A DNA stretch of 64,000 nucleotides from Kushneria pakistanensis (GTDB taxonomy: Bacteria > Pseudomonadota > Gammaproteobacteria > Pseudomonadales > Halomonadaceae): assembly GCF_014652795.1 (NCBI RefSeq), contig NZ_BMZM01000001.1:1-64000 (forward strand), given 5' to 3'. Under the pieces are notes generated by a model. The model was given only the letters and a program-made list of their open reading frames with translations. It was not told the origin of the DNA and searched no databases. Below, in pieces: positions 1 to 6,734 of this stretch (positions are counted from its first letter, which is position 1; every line of letters starts with the position of its first letter). The translations under genes and the position numbers were made by a program.

Positions 1-42
1 CATTGAGCTGACGCGTACTAATTGCCCGTGAGGCTTGACCAT
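1..42 (+). rRNA. 23S rRNA, 3' end (partial)
   Basis: The first bases match the conserved 3' terminus of 23S rRNA (GAGCTGACGCGTACTAAT, then CCGTGAGGCTTGACC). The rest of the gene lies left of the window. The exact mature end near position 42 is estimated by comparison with the E. coli 23S end. A 5S gene follows about 105 bases downstream, the usual bacterial rrn order. Confidence 0.93.
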
Positions 43-148
43 ATAACACCCAAGTGGTTCGCGTCACACGACGCCGGATACGAGAGACGTATCGATCAGC
101 ATGATCCCGTTTTTGACCCGCTGCCCACGGGCAGCCGGTCTGCAGAAT

Positions 149-267
149 TGCCTGACGACCATAGCGTACCGGTCCCACCCGATCCCATCCCGAACTCGGC
201 AGTGAAACGGTTCCGCGCCGATGGTAGTGTGGGGTCTCCCCATGCGAGAGTAGGTCATCGTCAGGCA
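149..267 (+). rRNA. rrf: 5S rRNA
   Basis: The 119-base segment begins TGCCTGACGACC and ends GGTCATCGTCAGGCA, so the two ends pair as 5S helix I. The internal block with GTCCCACC, CCGAACTC and AGTGAAACG is the universally conserved 5S loop region. It follows the 23S end with no tRNA between them. Ends are accurate to a base or two. Confidence 0.97.
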
Positions 268-276
268 CCCCTTCCG

Positions 277-310
277 AACCCCGGTCCCAAAAGGACCGGG
301 GTTCCTTTAT
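277..310 (+). terminator. rrn operon terminator
   Basis: A perfect 11-bp stem (277-287 with 293-303), loop CAAAA, is followed by a T-rich tract (TTCCTTTAT) just after 5S. This is the intrinsic terminator of the rRNA operon. Confidence 0.85.
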
Positions 311-344
311 GTGCGCCATCGACAGCGGCGGCGCAGCCCGGCCC

Positions 345-374
345 GCCCGGCGGTCACTGACGTGACCGCCGGGC
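345..374 (-). terminator. strong hairpin behind a gene remnant
   Basis: A perfect 13-bp inverted repeat (345-357 with 362-374), loop TGAC. It lies directly downstream, in the minus direction, of the truncated reading frame at 382-450, as a terminator would. There is no clear T-run, so the orientation is inferred from that frame. Confidence 0.45.
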
Positions 375-381
375 AGGGGCC

Positions 382-450
382 TCAGGCCCGACGCTCATCC
401 CCCATTGCCTGCAGGGCGTCAACCAGCGCCATCATCTCCCGATCGATACC
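382..450 (-). pseudogene. orphan C-terminal gene fragment
   Basis: On the minus strand, 450 to 382 reads as a GC-rich coding-like frame of about 22 codons, ending in residues MALVDALQAMGDERRA and TGA, then a strong hairpin. Upstream, the composition switches to AT-rich and the frame closes with TAA about two codons earlier. It looks like the 3' end of a lost gene together with its terminator. The parent family is not recognised. A chance frame of this length cannot be excluded. Confidence 0.3.
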
Positions 451-601
451 AATCAATTATATTGTGTGGGGAAATCAATCCCTTCCTGAGCAAAGAGATT
501 TGGTATTACGTCTGTTTTTGCACCACAATGGATGGGTAAGCGCTCAAGGTTTTGGGCATATCGTTGATGTACTGAATACAGTAGGCAAGGGAGAGCTGAC
601 G
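451..601. other. AT-rich non-coding leader
   Basis: This 150-base stretch between the gene remnant and the small lipoprotein is more AT-rich than its surroundings. It should hold the lipoprotein promoter, but no -35/-10 pair is convincing. A clear ribosome-binding site (AAGGGAGAG) lies at about 588-595. Nothing else is seen. Confidence 0.4.
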
Positions 602-853
602 ATGAAAAAGACACTGGGTATTTTGCTGGCCGCAATGATGACGTTTGCTGTAGCCGGTTGTGACAATGATGATGGTCCTGCAGAAGAGACCGGTGCACAG
701 ATTGACAATGCAGCCGACAATGCTGGAGACACTACACGCGATACGGCTGATTCCGTAGGCGATGCTACCAGCGATGCAGCGCATTCTACTGGCGAAGCCA
801 TGGAAGACGCAGGTGACTCCATCAGCGACAGCGCTGACGAGCACAGCAACTGA
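602..853 (+). CDS. small acidic lipoprotein, unknown function
   Basis: An 83-residue protein with a lipoprotein signal: MKK, a hydrophobic core, and lipobox VAGC with the lipidated Cys at residue 20. The mature part is very rich in Asp, Ala, Ser and Thr with repeated AxDxAxD-like units, so it is probably an extended or helical acidic periplasmic tail. The start at 602 is preceded by AAGGGAGAG at good spacing; the longer upstream frame lacks this and a signal. It is a single-gene unit followed by a terminator. Such acidic low-complexity lipoproteins occur in halophilic bacteria, but I do not recognise a family. Confidence 0.8.
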   Translation: MKKTLGILLAAMMTFAVAGCDNDDGPAEETGAQIDNAADNAGDTTRDTADSVGDATSDAAHSTGEAMEDAGDSISDSADEHSN

Positions 854-883
854 TCTATCCCGATAAAGTAGGGTAGGGAAGTG

Positions 884-918
884 AAAAAGCCTCCTGACTA
901 TTGTCAGGAGGCTTTTTT
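884..918 (+). terminator. bidirectional terminator
   Basis: A 10-bp stem (889-898 with 903-912), loop TATT, has an A-run before it and TTTTTT after it. It sits between the convergent lipoprotein genes at 602-853 and 943-1155 and can serve both. Confidence 0.88.
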
Positions 919-942
919 GCTATGGCACTACCGTCCTAGCCG

Positions 943-1155
943 TTACTGGGCGCTGGCTGCGCCTACAGCTGCACCGGCAGCGCCGCCGATCAGGGCGCCT
1001 TTACCTGCGCTACCACCCGTAATGGCGCCAGCAGCTGCGCCCGTGGCACCGCCGATACCGGCACCCTGAGCTGCGCTACGCCCTGTAGGACTGCTGCAGG
1101 CGGTCAGAAACGCCAGGGCAGCTATGGCCGCCATTGTCATGATGCCCTTGTGCAT
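943..1155 (-). CDS. glycine-zipper lipoprotein
   Basis: A 70-residue protein with signal peptide and lipobox (LTAC, Cys20). It then consists of Gly/Ala repeats of the form GxxxGxxxG (GIGGATGAAAG, GALIGGAAG), which define glycine-zipper outer-membrane lipoproteins such as OsmB/YMGG-type proteins. These typically associate with or insert into the outer membrane and are often osmotically or stress induced. The strong ribosome-binding site GAGAGGAGA precedes the ATG at 1155. Monocistronic, convergent with the previous lipoprotein. The specific function is unknown. Confidence 0.82.
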   Translation of the reverse strand: MHKGIMTMAAIAALAFLTACSSPTGRSAAQGAGIGGATGAAAGAITGGSAGKGALIGGAAGAAVGAASAQ

Positions 1156-1261
1156 GTGTGTCTCCTCTCAAGCCTTGAGTGAAAGATAGCGTAGTCGCCT
1201 TATTATCGGCCATTCCTGTTGATACTGGACCTTTAGTAAGGGCCGTTTTAAGGATGGACAT

Positions 1262-1286
1262 AAAAAAGCCCTGCAAAGAGCAGGGC
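1262..1286 (-). terminator. nrdAB terminator
   Basis: On the minus strand a 7-bp stem (1268-1274 with 1280-1286), loop of five, is followed by six T residues (1262-1267). It lies 60 bases beyond the nrdB stop. Confidence 0.82.
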
Positions 1287-1347
1287 CGTTCAGCTTGCAT
1301 ATCGTTTTCGGCCCCTTTTGCAAGTCAGGGCCTGAATGGCTTTTGAC

Positions 1348-2457
1348 TCAATCCCAGGTCAGCGCGCCGCCTGTCTGATACTCGGTGACACGTGTTTCGA
1401 AGAAATTCTTCTCCTTGGGCAGGTCGATCAGTTCCGACATCCAGGGGAAGGGGTTTTCCACATCATCAAACAGCAGACCCAGGCCAATCTGTTCACTACG
1501 ACGATTGGCAATGAAGCGCATGTACTGCTCGGTTAGCTCGGCATTGAGACCCAGAATCCCGCGGGGCATGGTCTCACGGCCATAGGCGACTTCAAGCTCG
1601 TAGGCTTCCATCAGCATGCCGCGAACTTCCTGCTGGAATGCCTCGTCCCAGAGATGAGGATTTTCGATCTTGATCTGATTGATGCAGTCGATACCGAAAT
1701 TCAGATGGATTGATTCGTCACGCAGGATGTACTGATACTGCTCGGCAATACCGACCATCTTGTTGCGACGACCCAGCGACAGGATCTGGGCAAAACCGGT
1801 ATAGAACCACATGCCTTCAAAGACGACGTAGAAGGCGACCAGCGCACGCAGGAATGCCTTGTCACGCTCAATGGTGCCGGTAGTGAAGCTCGGGTCTTCA
1901 AGCGCCTGTGTGTACTTGAGCGCCCAGGCGTCCTTGTCCGTGATTGAGGGGATTTCACGGTACATGTTGAAAAGCTCACCCTCATCCAGCCCCAGTGACG
2001 TACAGATATACTGGAAGGTATGAGTATGAATGGCTTCTTCAAAGGCCTGACGCAACAGATACTGACGGCATTCCGGATTGGTGATGTTGCGATAGACCGC
2101 TAAAACGATGTTGTTGGCGACCAGCGACTCGGCGGTGGCAAAGAAGCCGAGGTTGCGCTTGAGCATCAGAACTTCGTCTTCGGTCAATCCTTCGGGGCTA
2201 TTGACCGGAGCGCGCCATGTGGCGATATCACCCTGCATGGAGACTTCGGTCGGCATCCAGTGGTTGTTGCAGCCTGCCAGATACTTTTCCCACGCCCAGC
2301 TGTACTTCAGCGGCAGCAGCTGGTTGACATCGGATTGTGCATTAATCATCGCCTTCTGGCTGGCATCAATACGCTGAGCACCTACCTGAATCTCGCCCAG
2401 ACCGGTGTTATCGACCTGATCTTCCTCATTGCCGGAAAACAGTGTTGTGTCTTGCAT
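1348..2457 (-). CDS. nrdB: ribonucleotide reductase R2 subunit, class Ic-like
   Basis: A 369-residue radical-generating subunit of class I ribonucleotide reductase, which activates NrdA for dNTP synthesis in the cytoplasm. Metal ligands are visible: Glu110 (TAESLVANN), Glu141 and His144 (AFEEAIH), a Glu in FEGMWFY, and Glu/His in [10 protein letters not shown]. Compared with E. coli R2, the first ligand is Glu instead of Asp84, and the radical Tyr122 position is Phe148 (HTHTFQY). Both changes match the Chlamydia Mn/Fe class Ic R2 (Glu89, Phe127). The C-terminal Tyr needed for radical transfer is kept (TEYQTGG). The start was chosen at ATG 2457, which follows GGGAGAG; a longer frame to 2532 has no support. 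It lies 93 bases after nrdA in one operon. Confidence 0.95.
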
Positions 2458-2550
2458 GTGTCTCTCCCTTGCCGTCCCTGTGCCTTCAAACGGCGAGGAT
2501 GGCCTTGAAAATGGAACACCGGCGCCCGTCACGAGCGCCGGAAAAACGTT

Positions 2551-5451
2551 TTACTGGCAGGCTTCGCAGTCCGGATCGTCCAGTGAGCAGGCCAGCGGCG
2601 GTGCCGAACCCAGCGGCTGCTCAGGCGTCTGTGAGGCCTGCGGTGCCGGTGCCGCGCTCGGCTGTGGCGCCGGTGCGTTGGGCTTGACCCCGGTCAGCTT
2701 GCCATCGGTGCCCTTGAGTGTTGATTTCTCAAGGCGCGTGGATGCCTGGGCACGGAGGTAGTAGGTGGTCTTCAGACCCAGCTGCCATGCCATGCGATAG
2801 GTGGTATCCAGCTTGCGACCGGAAACACCGCTGATATAAAGGTTCAGCGACTGCGCCTGATCGATCCACTTCTGACGACGTGAAGCAGCTTCGACGATCC
2901 AGCGCGGTTCAATTTCAAATGCCGTGGCATAGCGCTGCTTGAGATCTTCCGGAATACGGTCGATTGGTTGCAGTGAGCCGTCGTAGTACTTGAGGTCATT
3001 GATCATCACCTCGTCCCAGAGCCCACGCTCCTTGAGCGCATGCACCATGTGCGAGTTGACCACGGTGAACTCGCCCGACAGGTTCGACTTCACATACAGG
3101 TTCTGGTACGTCGGCTCGATCGACTGCGTGACGCCACAGATATTGGAAATGGTGGCTGTCGGTGCAATCGCCATGACGTTGGAGTTACGCATGCCCTGGC
3201 TGCGGACCTTGTTGCGAATGCGGTCCCAGTCCTGCGTGGTGGAAGTATCCATCTGCAGGTACTGTTCGCCACGCTCACGCTGCAGGTCACGAATGGAGTC
3301 GATGGGCAGTACACCCTGGCTCCAGAGTGAACCCTCATAGGATTCATAGTGGCCGCGCTCCGCCGCCAGATCGCTGGAGGCTTCAATGGCGTGATAGCTG
3401 ATCAGCTCCATGGAGTGATCGGCAAAGGTCACGGCCGCATCGGAAGCGTAGGCAATGCCATGCTTGTAAAGCGCGTCCTGAAAGCCCATCAGGCCCAGAC
3501 CGACCGGACGATGACGGAAGTTCGAGCGTTTGGCCTGCGGTACGGCGTAGTAGTTGATGTCGATGACGTTATCGAGCATGCGTACGGCAGTCCTGACCGA
3601 ACGCTTGAGCTTTTCATTGTCCAACTGGCCGTTGATCACGTGAGCAGCCAGGTTGATCGAGCCCAGATTGCACACGGCAATTTCGTCAACGCTGGTATTG
3701 AGTGTGATCTCGGTGCACAGGTTGGAGGAGTGCACGACACCGGCATGACGCTGTGGGCTGCGCAGGTTGCAAGGATCCTTGAAGGTGATCCAGGGGTGGC
3801 CTGTTTCAAACAGCATCGACAGCATCTTGCGCCACAGATCCTTGGCCTGTACACGCTTGAACAGCGTGATTTCACCGGTCTGCGTCATGGCTTCGTATTC
3901 TTCATAACGCTTCTCGAATGCCGCGCCATAAAGATCGTGCAGGTCAGGGCAGGTGGCCGGCGAGAAGAGTGTCCACTCCTTTTCTTCGCTGACACGCTTC
4001 ATGAACAGATCCGGTACCCAGTTGGCCGTGTTCATGTCATGCGTACGGCGGCGGTCGTCACCGGTGTTCTTGCGAAGCTCGAGGAACTCCTCGACATCCA
4101 TGTGCCAGGTTTCCAGGTACGAGCAGACAGCACCCTTGCGCTTGCCGCCCTGGTTGACCGCCACAGCCGTGTCGTTAACGACTTTCAAAAAGGGCACAAC
4201 ACCCTGCGACTTGCCGTTGGTCCCCTTGATATAGGAGCCCAGCGCGCGTACCGGTGTCCAGTCATTGCCCAGACCGCCGGCCCACTTGGAGAGCATGGCG
4301 TTGTCGCGGATGGCGCCATAGATGCCTTCCAGGTTATCCGGCACGGTGGTCAGATAGCAGGAGGACAGCTGGCTGCGGATGGTACCGGCATTGAACAGTG
4401 TCGGCGTCGATGTCATGTAATCGAAGCTCGACAGTAGTTCGTAGAATTCGATGGCGCGTGCCTCACGATCCTGCTCATTGAGCGACAGACCCATGGCCAC
4501 GCGCATGAACATGACCTGCGGCAGTTCGTAGCGAACACCGTTGCGGTGCAGGAAGTAACGGTCGTAGAGCGTCTGCAGGCCCAGATAAGTGAACTGGTTG
4601 TCACGCTCATGGTTTAGGGCATCGCCCAGACGCTCTAGGTCAAAGTCGGCCAGGGTTGGATCAAGCTGTTCGAACTCGATGCCGCGGGCAATGTAGTTCT
4701 TGAACGCTGGCTTGTAGAGCGATGCCATGTCGCTGAAGGTCGCTTCCTCGGTCACCTCAAGGAAGGACAGGGCTTCACGACGCAGGTTGTCCTGCAAAAG
4801 GCGTGCAGTGACGAAGGTGTAGTTGGGTTCCTTCTCGACCAGCATGCGCGCGGTCATCATCAGTGCCGTAGCGACACCTTCAGGCGTTACCCCGTCATAG
4901 AGATTGCGCAGTGATTCATCAACGATGCGACGGGCCTCAACGTTTTCAAGGCCGGCACACGCCTCATTAACCAGTGTCTCGATGCGTGCCAGATCAAGCG
5001 GGCGTCGGCTGCCGTCGGGCTGGGTCACATTAATGGTGGGGTGGGGCTTTTCAATACCCTGGTGCTGAGCGGCGCGGGCACGTGCATGTTCTTCGCGGTA
5101 CAGCACATAGGCGCGTGCCACCTTGTGCTCGCCCGAGCGCATCAGGGCCAGCTCTACCTGATCCTGAATATCTTCGATATGCAGGGTGCCACCTTCGGGC
5201 ATGCGGCGGGTAAAGGTGTCCATGATGGACTGTGTCAGCTGTTCTACCTGCTCGCGAATGCGAGAAGAGCCAGCAGCATTGTCACCTTCCACGGCAAGAA
5301 AGGCCTTGCTCATGGCTACGGAGACCTTGCTTGCATCAAAGGTGGCGGTATCACCGGTACGCTTGATGACGCGCAGCTGCTGATCGGTCGAGCGTGTATG
5401 AGCATCATCAAATGCTGATGAAGTATCACGCTCGGTATGCGAGGTTTCCAT
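2551..5451 (-). CDS. nrdA: ribonucleotide reductase R1 subunit, two ATP cones
   Basis: The 966-residue catalytic subunit reducing NDPs to dNDPs. Residues about 27-120 and 138-222 look like two successive ATP-cone modules, as in the long Pseudomonas-type NrdA. The core carries the active-site cysteines (SQLSSCYLTT; SSNLCTEI, with the conserved Asn, Cys and Glu) and the stacked tyrosines of the radical pathway (KTTYYLR). The tail is a Pro/Ala-rich flexible linker ending in Cys955, Cys962 and Cys965 (DPDCEACQ), the redox-active tail re-reducing the active site. The start ATG 5451 is preceded by AGGAAGG; the upstream extension in frame is not family-like. First gene of nrdAB, behind a promoter overlapped by NrdR boxes. 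Confidence 0.97.
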   Translation of the reverse strand: METSHTERDTSSAFDDAHTRSTDQQLRVIKRTGDTATFDASKVSVAMSKAFLAVEGDNAAGSSRIREQVEQLTQSIMDTFTRRMPEGGTLHIEDIQDQVELALMRSGEHKVARAYVLYREEHARARAAQHQGIEKPHPTINVTQPDGSRRPLDLARIETLVNEACAGLENVEARRIVDESLRNLYDGVTPEGVATALMMTARMLVEKEPNYTFVTARLLQDNLRREALSFLEVTEEATFSDMASLYKPAFKNYIARGIEFEQLDPTLADFDLERLGDALNHERDNQFTYLGLQTLYDRYFLHRNGVRYELPQVMFMRVAMGLSLNEQDREARAIEFYELLSSFDYMTSTPTLFNAGTIRSQLSSCYLTTVPDNLEGIYGAIRDNAMLSKWAGGLGNDWTPVRALGSYIKGTNGKSQGVVPFLKVVNDTAVAVNQGGKRKGAVCSYLETWHMDVEEFLELRKNTGDDRRRTHDMNTANWVPDLFMKRVSEEKEWTLFSPATCPDLHDLYGAAFEKRYEEYEAMTQTGEITLFKRVQAKDLWRKMLSMLFETGHPWITFKDPCNLRSPQRHAGVVHSSNLCTEITLNTSVDEIAVCNLGSINLAAHVINGQLDNEKLKRSVRTAVRMLDNVIDINYYAVPQAKRSNFRHRPVGLGLMGFQDALYKHGIAYASDAAVTFADHSMELISYHAIEASSDLAAERGHYESYEGSLWSQGVLPIDSIRDLQRERGEQYLQMDTSTTQDWDRIRNKVRSQGMRNSNVMAIAPTATISNICGVTQSIEPTYQNLYVKSNLSGEFTVVNSHMVHALKERGLWDEVMINDLKYYDGSLQPIDRIPEDLKQRYATAFEIEPRWIVEAASRRQKWIDQAQSLNLYISGVSGRKLDTTYRMAWQLGLKTTYYLRAQASTRLEKSTLKGTDGKLTGVKPNAPAPQPSAAPAPQASQTPEQPLGSAPPLACSLDDPDCEACQ

Positions 5452-5581
5452 AACGTTACCTTCCTGCCGTAAGGTCAAAACCATGCCGTGCCTGTCATTT
5501 ACGAAAGTAAAAGCAGGCAGCAACAGGGCCAAAAAATTGGATCGAAGGGTATTGACAGTCACCAGGCGCTTTTGCTTCAAA

Positions 5582-5597: not shown

Positions 5598-5612
5598 CTT
5601 CTCAAAAAGTAG

Positions 5613-5628
5613 GCACAATATAGTGTGT
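5613..5628. promoter_or_regulatory. NrdR box 1 (nrdA operator)
   Basis: GCACAATATAGTGTGT matches the NrdR consensus at 14 of 16 positions and contains the predicted -10 element of the nrdA promoter. Binding would block RNA polymerase, consistent with NrdR repression of ribonucleotide reductase genes when dATP is plentiful. Confidence 0.85.
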
Positions 5629-6020: not shown

Positions 6021-6734
6021 TTGGATAACATTACAACCGCCAACGAACACATTCTTATCATCGAAGATGATGAACGACTGGCCGCGTTGACGCGTGAGTA
6101 TCTTGAAGGCAACGGTTTCAGGGTCAGTGTTGAACATGATGGTGCCAACGGCGTTGAGCGTATCCTGTCCCTGCGCCCGGATCTGGTCATTCTTGACCTG
6201 ATGCTGCCGGGAGAAGACGGCCTGTCAATCTGTCGCCGCGTACGCCACCAGTATCCCGGGCCCATTTTGATGCTGACAGCCCGTACTGATGACATGGATC
6301 AGGTACTGGGGCTTGAAATGGGTGCTGATGATTACGTGCCCAAGCCGGTACCACCGCGCGTACTGCTGGCGCGCATGCGTGCACTGCTGCGCCGCGCTGA
6401 CGGTTCGGAAAACACCGAACAGGAAGAAACCCGCCTTGAATTCCGCGATCTGGTGGTGGATTCATCGACCAGGGAAGCATGGCTCAACGGTGAGCGTATT
6501 GATCTGACCAGTGCCGAGTTCGATCTGCTCTGGCTGCTGGCCTCACATGCCGGTCGAGTACTGACGCGTGAAGAGATATTCTCGGCGCTGCGCGGTATTC
6601 GTTACGATGGTCAGGACCGCTCGATCGATGTGCGTGTTTCACGCATCCGACCCAAGATCGGCGATGATCCGCATCAGCCGCAGCGTATCAAGACCGTACG
6701 CAGCAAGGGATATCTGTTCGTTCGAGAGGTCTGA
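6021..6734 (+). CDS. rstA: OmpR-family response regulator, RstA-like
   Basis: A 237-residue two-component regulator. The receiver domain (about 11-125) has acidic pocket Glu15-Asp16-Asp17, phospho-acceptor Asp59 (LVILDLML) and conserved Lys108 (YVPKP). The winged-helix DNA-binding domain (about 140-237) ends with RIKTVRSKGYLF. Segments such as LPGEDGLSICRRVR, VLGLEMGADDY and LRGIRYDGQDRSIDVRVSRIR closely follow E. coli RstA, which responds through RstB and acts with acid and PhoP regulation. The start is TTG at 6021, the only in-frame start before the receiver fold; its ribosome-binding site is weak. The partner kinase follows 73 bases downstream. Confidence 0.87.
   Translation: MDNITTANEHILIIEDDERLAALTREYLEGNGFRVSVEHDGANGVERILSLRPDLVILDLMLPGEDGLSICRRVRHQYPGPILMLTARTDDMDQVLGLEMGADDYVPKPVPPRVLLARMRALLRRADGSENTEQEETRLEFRDLVVDSSTREAWLNGERIDLTSAEFDLLWLLASHAGRVLTREEIFSALRGIRYDGQDRSIDVRVSRIRPKIGDDPHQPQRIKTVRSKGYLFVREV

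Follow-up and report, generated by a model that had tools for sequence, protein, structure and literature searches.

A chimeric ribonucleotide reductase in Kushneria: native NrdA beside a predicted Mn/Fe-type NrdB that was probably replaced in place

Background

Radical transfer in class I ribonucleotide reductases (RNRs) spans a long path across the interface between NrdB (R2) and NrdA, and the two subunits are therefore expected to co-evolve; for phages that carry both genes, nrdA and nrdB trees are reported to be congruent (PMC3653736). Class Ic R2 proteins carry Phe (or Leu, Ile or Val) in place of the radical Tyr, and the R2 of Chlamydia trachomatis (class Ic; structures 1syy and 4d8f) also has Glu for the Asp ligand at site 1. 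In this R2 the tyrosyl radical is described as replaced by a Mn(IV)/Fe(III) centre in which site 1 holds the Mn (PMC4118035, PMC8463856), and a relay role is given to W51 (PMC4118035). The R2 of Saccharopolyspora erythraea has likewise been solved (6y2n; PMC7467353). Class Ic is already known outside Chlamydia, with Mn/Fe-type proteins published for extremophiles (PMC4118035) and Phe-type R2 proteins for halophilic archaea (PMC3019208), and the diagnostic residues alone therefore add no more than another case. How such proteins are related to each other is described differently: the tyrosine-less NrdBs are called a tight cluster in PMC4390871, and PMC3824934 found R2c monophyletic while citing Lundin et al. 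2010 for the opposite, polyphyletic result.

Here we describe an RNR in which the two subunits appear to have different histories. In those parts of the open-access PMC literature that were consulted, neither a swap of nrdB alone nor any Kushneria RNR was found described. Kushneria is a free-living genus and, like Larsenimonas, halophilic.

Results

The window (the whole 64,000-nucleotide stretch of Kushneria pakistanensis DNA analysed here) carries nrdB on the minus strand at 1348..2457, encoding 369 amino acids from an ATG. The best family model for this protein is NCBIfam NF005550 (639 bits), and among solved structures it matches 6y2n with 641 bits and C. trachomatis 1syy with 427.9 bits, which supports the first-pass annotation in its view that the remainder of the protein is Chlamydia-like. 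An identity as R2lox was rejected, because the best R2lox model reaches 46 bits against 639 for NF005550 and the C-terminal radical-transfer Tyr that R2lox lacks is present as Tyr360.

Direct codon reading and alignment place Glu110 (GAG, 2128..2130, minus strand) in the column of C. trachomatis E89 and Escherichia coli D84, and Phe148 (TTC, 2014..2016, minus strand) in that of F127 and the radical tyrosine Y122. Both substitutions had been proposed in the first-pass annotation, together with a spacing of 31 residues between Glu110 and Glu141, and the alignment, in which the Kushneria protein has no Tyr at the radical position, bears out all of them; the radical tyrosine expected of a class Ia (Asp/Tyr) protein is missing. 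The other metal ligands, located by alignment on the minus strand, are Glu141 and His144 (2026..2037; E120 and H123 in C. trachomatis), Glu214 (1816..1818; E193) and Glu248 and His251 (1705..1716; E227 and H230), and the putative electron relay includes Trp67 (2257..2259, minus strand; W51). Thirteen positions of the metal site and the electron relay (E89, F127, W51, E120, H123, Y129, E193, F197, Y222, D226, E227, H230 and Y338 of the C. trachomatis R2) were compared in the multiple alignment, and the Kushneria protein is identical at every one of the 13. Tyr243 (Y222) was rejected as a class Ic marker, as the Asp/Tyr relative L012 has it too.

Across 212 aligned R2 rows, which include references and several copies of one gene, the residues in the Asp84 and Tyr122 columns read Glu/Phe in 126, Asp/Tyr in 83 and Glu/Leu in 2, with one row unreadable (L206), and an Asp/Phe or Glu/Tyr pair is found in none of the 212. 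The pair in Kushneria is thus not due to chance, because Glu goes strictly with Phe or Leu, and Asp with Tyr. Two R2 proteins from the search of the actinobacterial phylum (L177, L178) have Glu and Leu at the diagnostic positions. All 25 native-type Halomonadaceae NrdB loci that were fetched are Asp/Tyr (further genomes at ~66% identity are listed), and so is the plasmid copy of Pseudomonas sp. Leaf58 (L200), in agreement with the first-pass annotation, in which Pseudomonas NrdB keeps these residues. The assignment of the Kushneria NrdB to class Ic (Mn/Fe), a prediction made from its sequence, is well supported. The first-pass annotation had presented a class Ic enzyme in a free-living halophile as unexpected: the signature stands, the surprise does not, as cases from extremophiles and halophilic archaea are in print (PMC4118035, PMC3019208).

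By analogy with C. trachomatis, the protein would most likely assemble Mn(IV)/Fe(III), with the Mn in site 1 next to Phe148, and this centre would serve as the oxidant in place of a stable tyrosyl radical. The oxidising equivalent would then travel from the metal centre by way of Trp67 and Tyr360 of NrdB to the native NrdA, which would have to accept it from a metal centre because Mn(IV)/Fe(III) replaces the tyrosyl radical. Three Nramp-type transporters score over the cut-off in the genome and would be compatible with manganese uptake, and resistance to peroxide or scavengers may be supposed from Chlamydia alone.

The nrdAB product is the only RNR detected in the Kushneria genome: it holds a single PF00268 match and hence no second nrdB, which the first-pass annotation had named as a possible objection, and the profile searches found neither a further NrdA/NrdJ barrel nor an NrdD, the NrdD search covering the window's own genome. 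An NrdB of at least 86% identity is encoded in 12 of the 151 Halomonadaceae genomes searched (149 with a match); all 12 loci read Glu/Phe, and PF00268 and PF02867 each match exactly once in every one of these genomes. These counts bear on the possibility that the Glu/Phe signature goes with another cofactor, di-manganese or di-iron, or with poor activity. According to PMC4118035, an Mn/Fe centre in vivo had as of 2014 yet to be demonstrated for any R2c, and the biochemistry in the papers cited here is that of the C. trachomatis R2; however, the Kushneria protein matches that R2 at 13/13 positions and, as the sole R2 in 12/12 genomes, must work, which makes this alternative unlikely in our estimation. 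Two further genomes of the same genus, G002 and G007 (loci L142 and L141), are without the Kushneria-type nrdAB operon. They encode a distant NrdA (32-33% identical) and a distant Asp/Tyr R2 (26-27% identical; in L141 of the NF007184 type), and have a second PF02867 match in a frame of 588-589 aa that is possibly class II.

The nrdA gene lies at 2551..5580 on the minus strand as an ORF from TTG, with the start likely at the ATG at 5451, and its product has two ATP-cone matches (Pfam). Over the best aligned segment it is 77-79% identical to the NrdA of three native Halomonadaceae loci, whose NrdBs are Asp/Tyr, ~71% to that of two other Pseudomonadales and 60-67% to actinobacterial NrdA. In the NrdA tree the Kushneria group (7 rows; 100/100, starred) joins the native Halomonadaceae NrdA (100/99, starred), and a tree forced to unite it with the actinobacterial NrdAs is worse by 306 log units (AU test, p-AU 0.005). 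Judged by identity and tree position, NrdA is native to Halomonadaceae. This bears directly on the hypothesis that a class Ic operon was taken whole, nrdA and nrdB together, from an actinobacterium: it agrees with the grouping of NrdB with Actinobacteria reported below, but the shared history of the two genes that it demands is contradicted by the identities, the position and the rejected grouping of NrdA, and as it could be saved only by supposing that nrdA was later replaced back, we regard it as highly improbable. The locus L148 (G055), whose NrdA is 65% identical to that of Kushneria and whose Asp/Tyr NrdB is 38% identical, shows another possible mismatch between alpha and beta subunits.

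The NrdB, on the other hand, shares 77-82% identity with its nearest Glu/Phe counterparts from Actinobacteria (within the best 80 of 590 loci) and ~66% with native Halomonadaceae NrdB. Such NrdBs are a minority among Actinobacteria: in a sample of 198 genomes from this phylum, centred on Nocardiopsis, the type at ~80% identity occurs in 2, the centre genome counted, and 5 further genomes have an R2 at 56-58%, of which the three that were read are Glu/Phe. NrdB trees were inferred from chosen subsets of the fetched loci with both diagnostic columns masked; eight long or distant rows of the 86-row tree (L177, L179, L148, L174, L176, L205, L207 and L201) were left out of the 78-row tree. The Kushneria group (9 rows) forms one clade (100/99, starred), which falls inside the actinobacterial-type Glu/Phe clade in three trees (83/97; 95/86, starred; 100/99, starred). 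Its neighbour is Micrococcales bacterium 31B (96/90, starred, and 98/79; the same in the 86- and 78-row trees), joined in the 57-row tree by Kineococcus (82/88). In the 86-row tree the Asp/Tyr row L148, whose branch is very long, is placed in the actinobacterial clade. When the Kushneria NrdB is forced together with its native Halomonadaceae counterparts, the tree is worse by 191 log units (p-AU 7.2e-47), and tree and identity together argue that this NrdB is non-native. The Chlamydia-like relationship for which the first-pass annotation had proposed a tree thus holds for the Glu/Phe type and is incomplete for ancestry, since beyond Halomonadaceae its closest relatives come from Actinobacteria.

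The donor need not have been an actinobacterium, even if the swap is real. Trees that keep Kushneria together with gamma75, the other gammaproteobacterial Glu/Phe group (families f180 and f168), are not rejected (p 0.12), nor are those that unite Actinobacteria, with the alpha and viral rows, to the exclusion of Kushneria (p 0.19), which leaves room for another gammaproteobacterium or an unsampled lineage as the source. Against this, the best trees join Kushneria with Micrococcales bacterium 31B at the support given above, and gamma75 falls outside the Kushneria/31B clade (83/94), so that we consider a non-actinobacterial donor unlikely.

An identity scan, in which each window was compared with the closest among three native rows and among five actinobacterial rows, puts the swap junction at or near the 93 bp gap between nrdA and nrdB (2458..2550). 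With 50-residue windows, NrdA is closer to the native rows in 19 of 20, the last (951-1000) being a tie; with 20-residue windows, NrdB is closer to the actinobacterial rows in 17 of 18, the scan ending at residue 360. The exception is window 341-360, which is native-like, and because of it the downstream breakpoint may lie within nrdB.

The C-terminal tail (residues 352-369; 1351..1404, minus strand), which holds Tyr360 (C. trachomatis Y338 by alignment), reads TEYQTGGAL[T/S]WD in all 14 Kushneria-group rows (12 genomes), TEYQVGGAL[S/N/A]WD in all 25 native Halomonadaceae rows and IEYQ[S/T]GG[A/G]LDWD in 53 of 81 actinobacterial rows. Thr358 is present in 14/14, 25/25 and 11/81 of these rows, respectively, and the Kushneria tail is closer to the native tail than to most actinobacterial tails. 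Either a native 3' end of the gene may have been retained, or the tail may have been re-adapted to the native NrdA; a handful of sites is involved. A second peculiarity is a four-residue insert, APVN (residues 83-86; 2200..2211, minus strand), of the Kushneria/Larsenimonas group. In the 212-row alignment it is present in every row of the group, once as APIN, and the remaining rows are gapped except for two Kribbella rows with a four-residue insert of other letters.

The native-like tail, and the fact that the signature amounts to two codons only, would also suit a native Asp/Tyr NrdB that became Glu/Phe by point substitution, without any transfer. However, 17 of 18 NrdB windows are nearer to the actinobacterial rows, vertical placement is rejected (p 7.2e-47), and the main Glu/Phe group is set apart from the Asp/Tyr group by 63 columns, the two diagnostic columns and the insert counted, so that we find this origin scarcely credible.

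Upstream of nrdA, at 6021..6734 on the plus strand, lies a response regulator (Pfam) that is a conserved neighbour in native Halomonadaceae loci; read in the Kushneria locus L149, it is 76-82% identical in three native loci (L216-L218). Taken together, the junction scan, the tail, the insert and this native upstream neighbour point to a replacement of nrdB in place. Because the junction is near the nrdA/nrdB boundary, the upstream neighbour is native and the histories of NrdA and NrdB are separate, it would be the radical-generating subunit alone that was replaced. A palindrome directly upstream of nrdA (5611..5628) is presumably NrdR-box-like, with two mismatches to the consensus. The GC content (0.537 in nrdB, 0.576 in nrdA and 0.606 in the window) is a weak signal that stands outside our argument. 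In this assembly (window 1-1347) and in five related ones (G004, G005, G006, G008 and G009) nrdB lies 1.0-1.4 kb from a contig end, and this position in six assemblies suggests a long repeat directly downstream of nrdB.

Discussion

We consider it probable that Kushneria possesses a chimeric RNR, in which a native NrdA works with a class Ic NrdB, predicted to be of the Mn/Fe type, that was replaced in place. The ancestral state would be the Halomonadaceae NrdA that related genera still encode beside an Asp/Tyr (di-iron/tyrosyl-radical type) NrdB. In an ancestor common to Kushneria, Larsenimonas and a third genus, presumably in a single event, the native nrdB would have given way to an incoming class Ic nrdB, whose type is best represented, among the sequences analysed, in a minority of the Actinobacteria.

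The locus resembles three described systems, and differs from each of them. With the class Ic R2 of C. trachomatis it shares Glu/Phe, the six ligand residues, the Trp and the C-terminal Tyr, but the NrdA lineage of Kushneria pairs with Asp/Tyr R2 in other Halomonadaceae. With the S. erythraea R2, its closest solved relative, and actinobacterial NrdBs of the PRK07209 type it shares the signature and the clade; in the actinobacterial loci examined, however, the neighbouring NrdA is actinobacterial, whereas that of Kushneria is native, and the Kushneria NrdB differs by its APVN insert and its native-like tail. With class Ia NrdAB of the Halomonadaceae/Pseudomonas type it has the NrdA lineage and the upstream response regulator in common, whereas the NrdB found there is Asp/Tyr and ~66% identical.

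Partners of the two types appear to have been exchanged elsewhere as well. On the NrdA tree of the matched 57-row trees, the NrdA set being without L231 and L203 (for which there was no nrdA match long enough), the type of the partner (Glu/Phe or Asp/Tyr) changes 5 times (5-5 over bootstraps, at least 4 changes being forced by starred branches), and on the NrdB tree 2 times (1-2 over bootstraps); a single clade of all Glu/Phe-partnered NrdA is rejected (p 4.6e-29). A second case of a swap is family f180 (gamma75), whose NrdA groups with the gammaproteobacterial sequences although its NrdB falls among those of actinobacterial type. Three Asp/Tyr-type nrdB genes on large plasmids (L200, L201 and L202) have no nrdA within ~4.5 kb, according to annotation and long tblastn matches, and nrdB can therefore travel alone; these plasmids are possible vehicles for nrdB-only transfer. 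We lean, with some reserve, towards the wider reading that the radical-generating subunit of this NrdA/NrdB family is an exchangeable module, and that through nrdB-only swaps a single catalytic lineage has gone back and forth several times between partners of the Fe/Tyr-radical and the Mn/Fe kind. If this is true, it makes no difference to NrdA what its oxidant is chemically, and the cofactor class is a horizontally exchanged trait and not a property of the enzyme lineage.

As the only RNR detected, with one subunit exchanged and the predicted oxidant changed, the Kushneria enzyme offers a natural experiment that bears on the requirements of the catalytic subunit. Since NrdAs that are 77-79% identical have partners of different predicted cofactor class, cross-reconstitution can test whether metal oxidant and tyrosyl radical are interchangeable, and the pair is matched closely enough for locating the residues that set the metal. 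It also raises the question why a halophile would abandon iron and tyrosine.

Five gammaproteobacterial Glu/Phe NrdBs from two families (L122, L131, L123, L132 and L135) nest inside or beside the Asp/Tyr group in the trees. They are Asp/Tyr-like at 44 of the 63 separating columns and Glu/Phe-like at 13, among them E110, F148, V143, I151 and T/C147, as well as A107 in four of the five, and are thus candidates for a minimal set of class Ic determinants. An independent origin of Glu/Phe in these five is not claimed, because a single clade of all Glu/Phe NrdB is not rejected with 78 rows (p 0.34) or with 71 (15 of the 86 rows left out; p 0.46), nor with residues 98-122 and 136-160 masked (71 rows, p 0.34).

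Two further loci hold both genes. A 45 kb viral contig (L209, IMG/VR) carries at 4501-5556 a class Ic-type Glu/Phe nrdB, 78% identical, with nrdA in the same stretch, and on a Paraburkholderia plasmid (L203) nrdA and nrdB are separated by an annotated IS21-type element.
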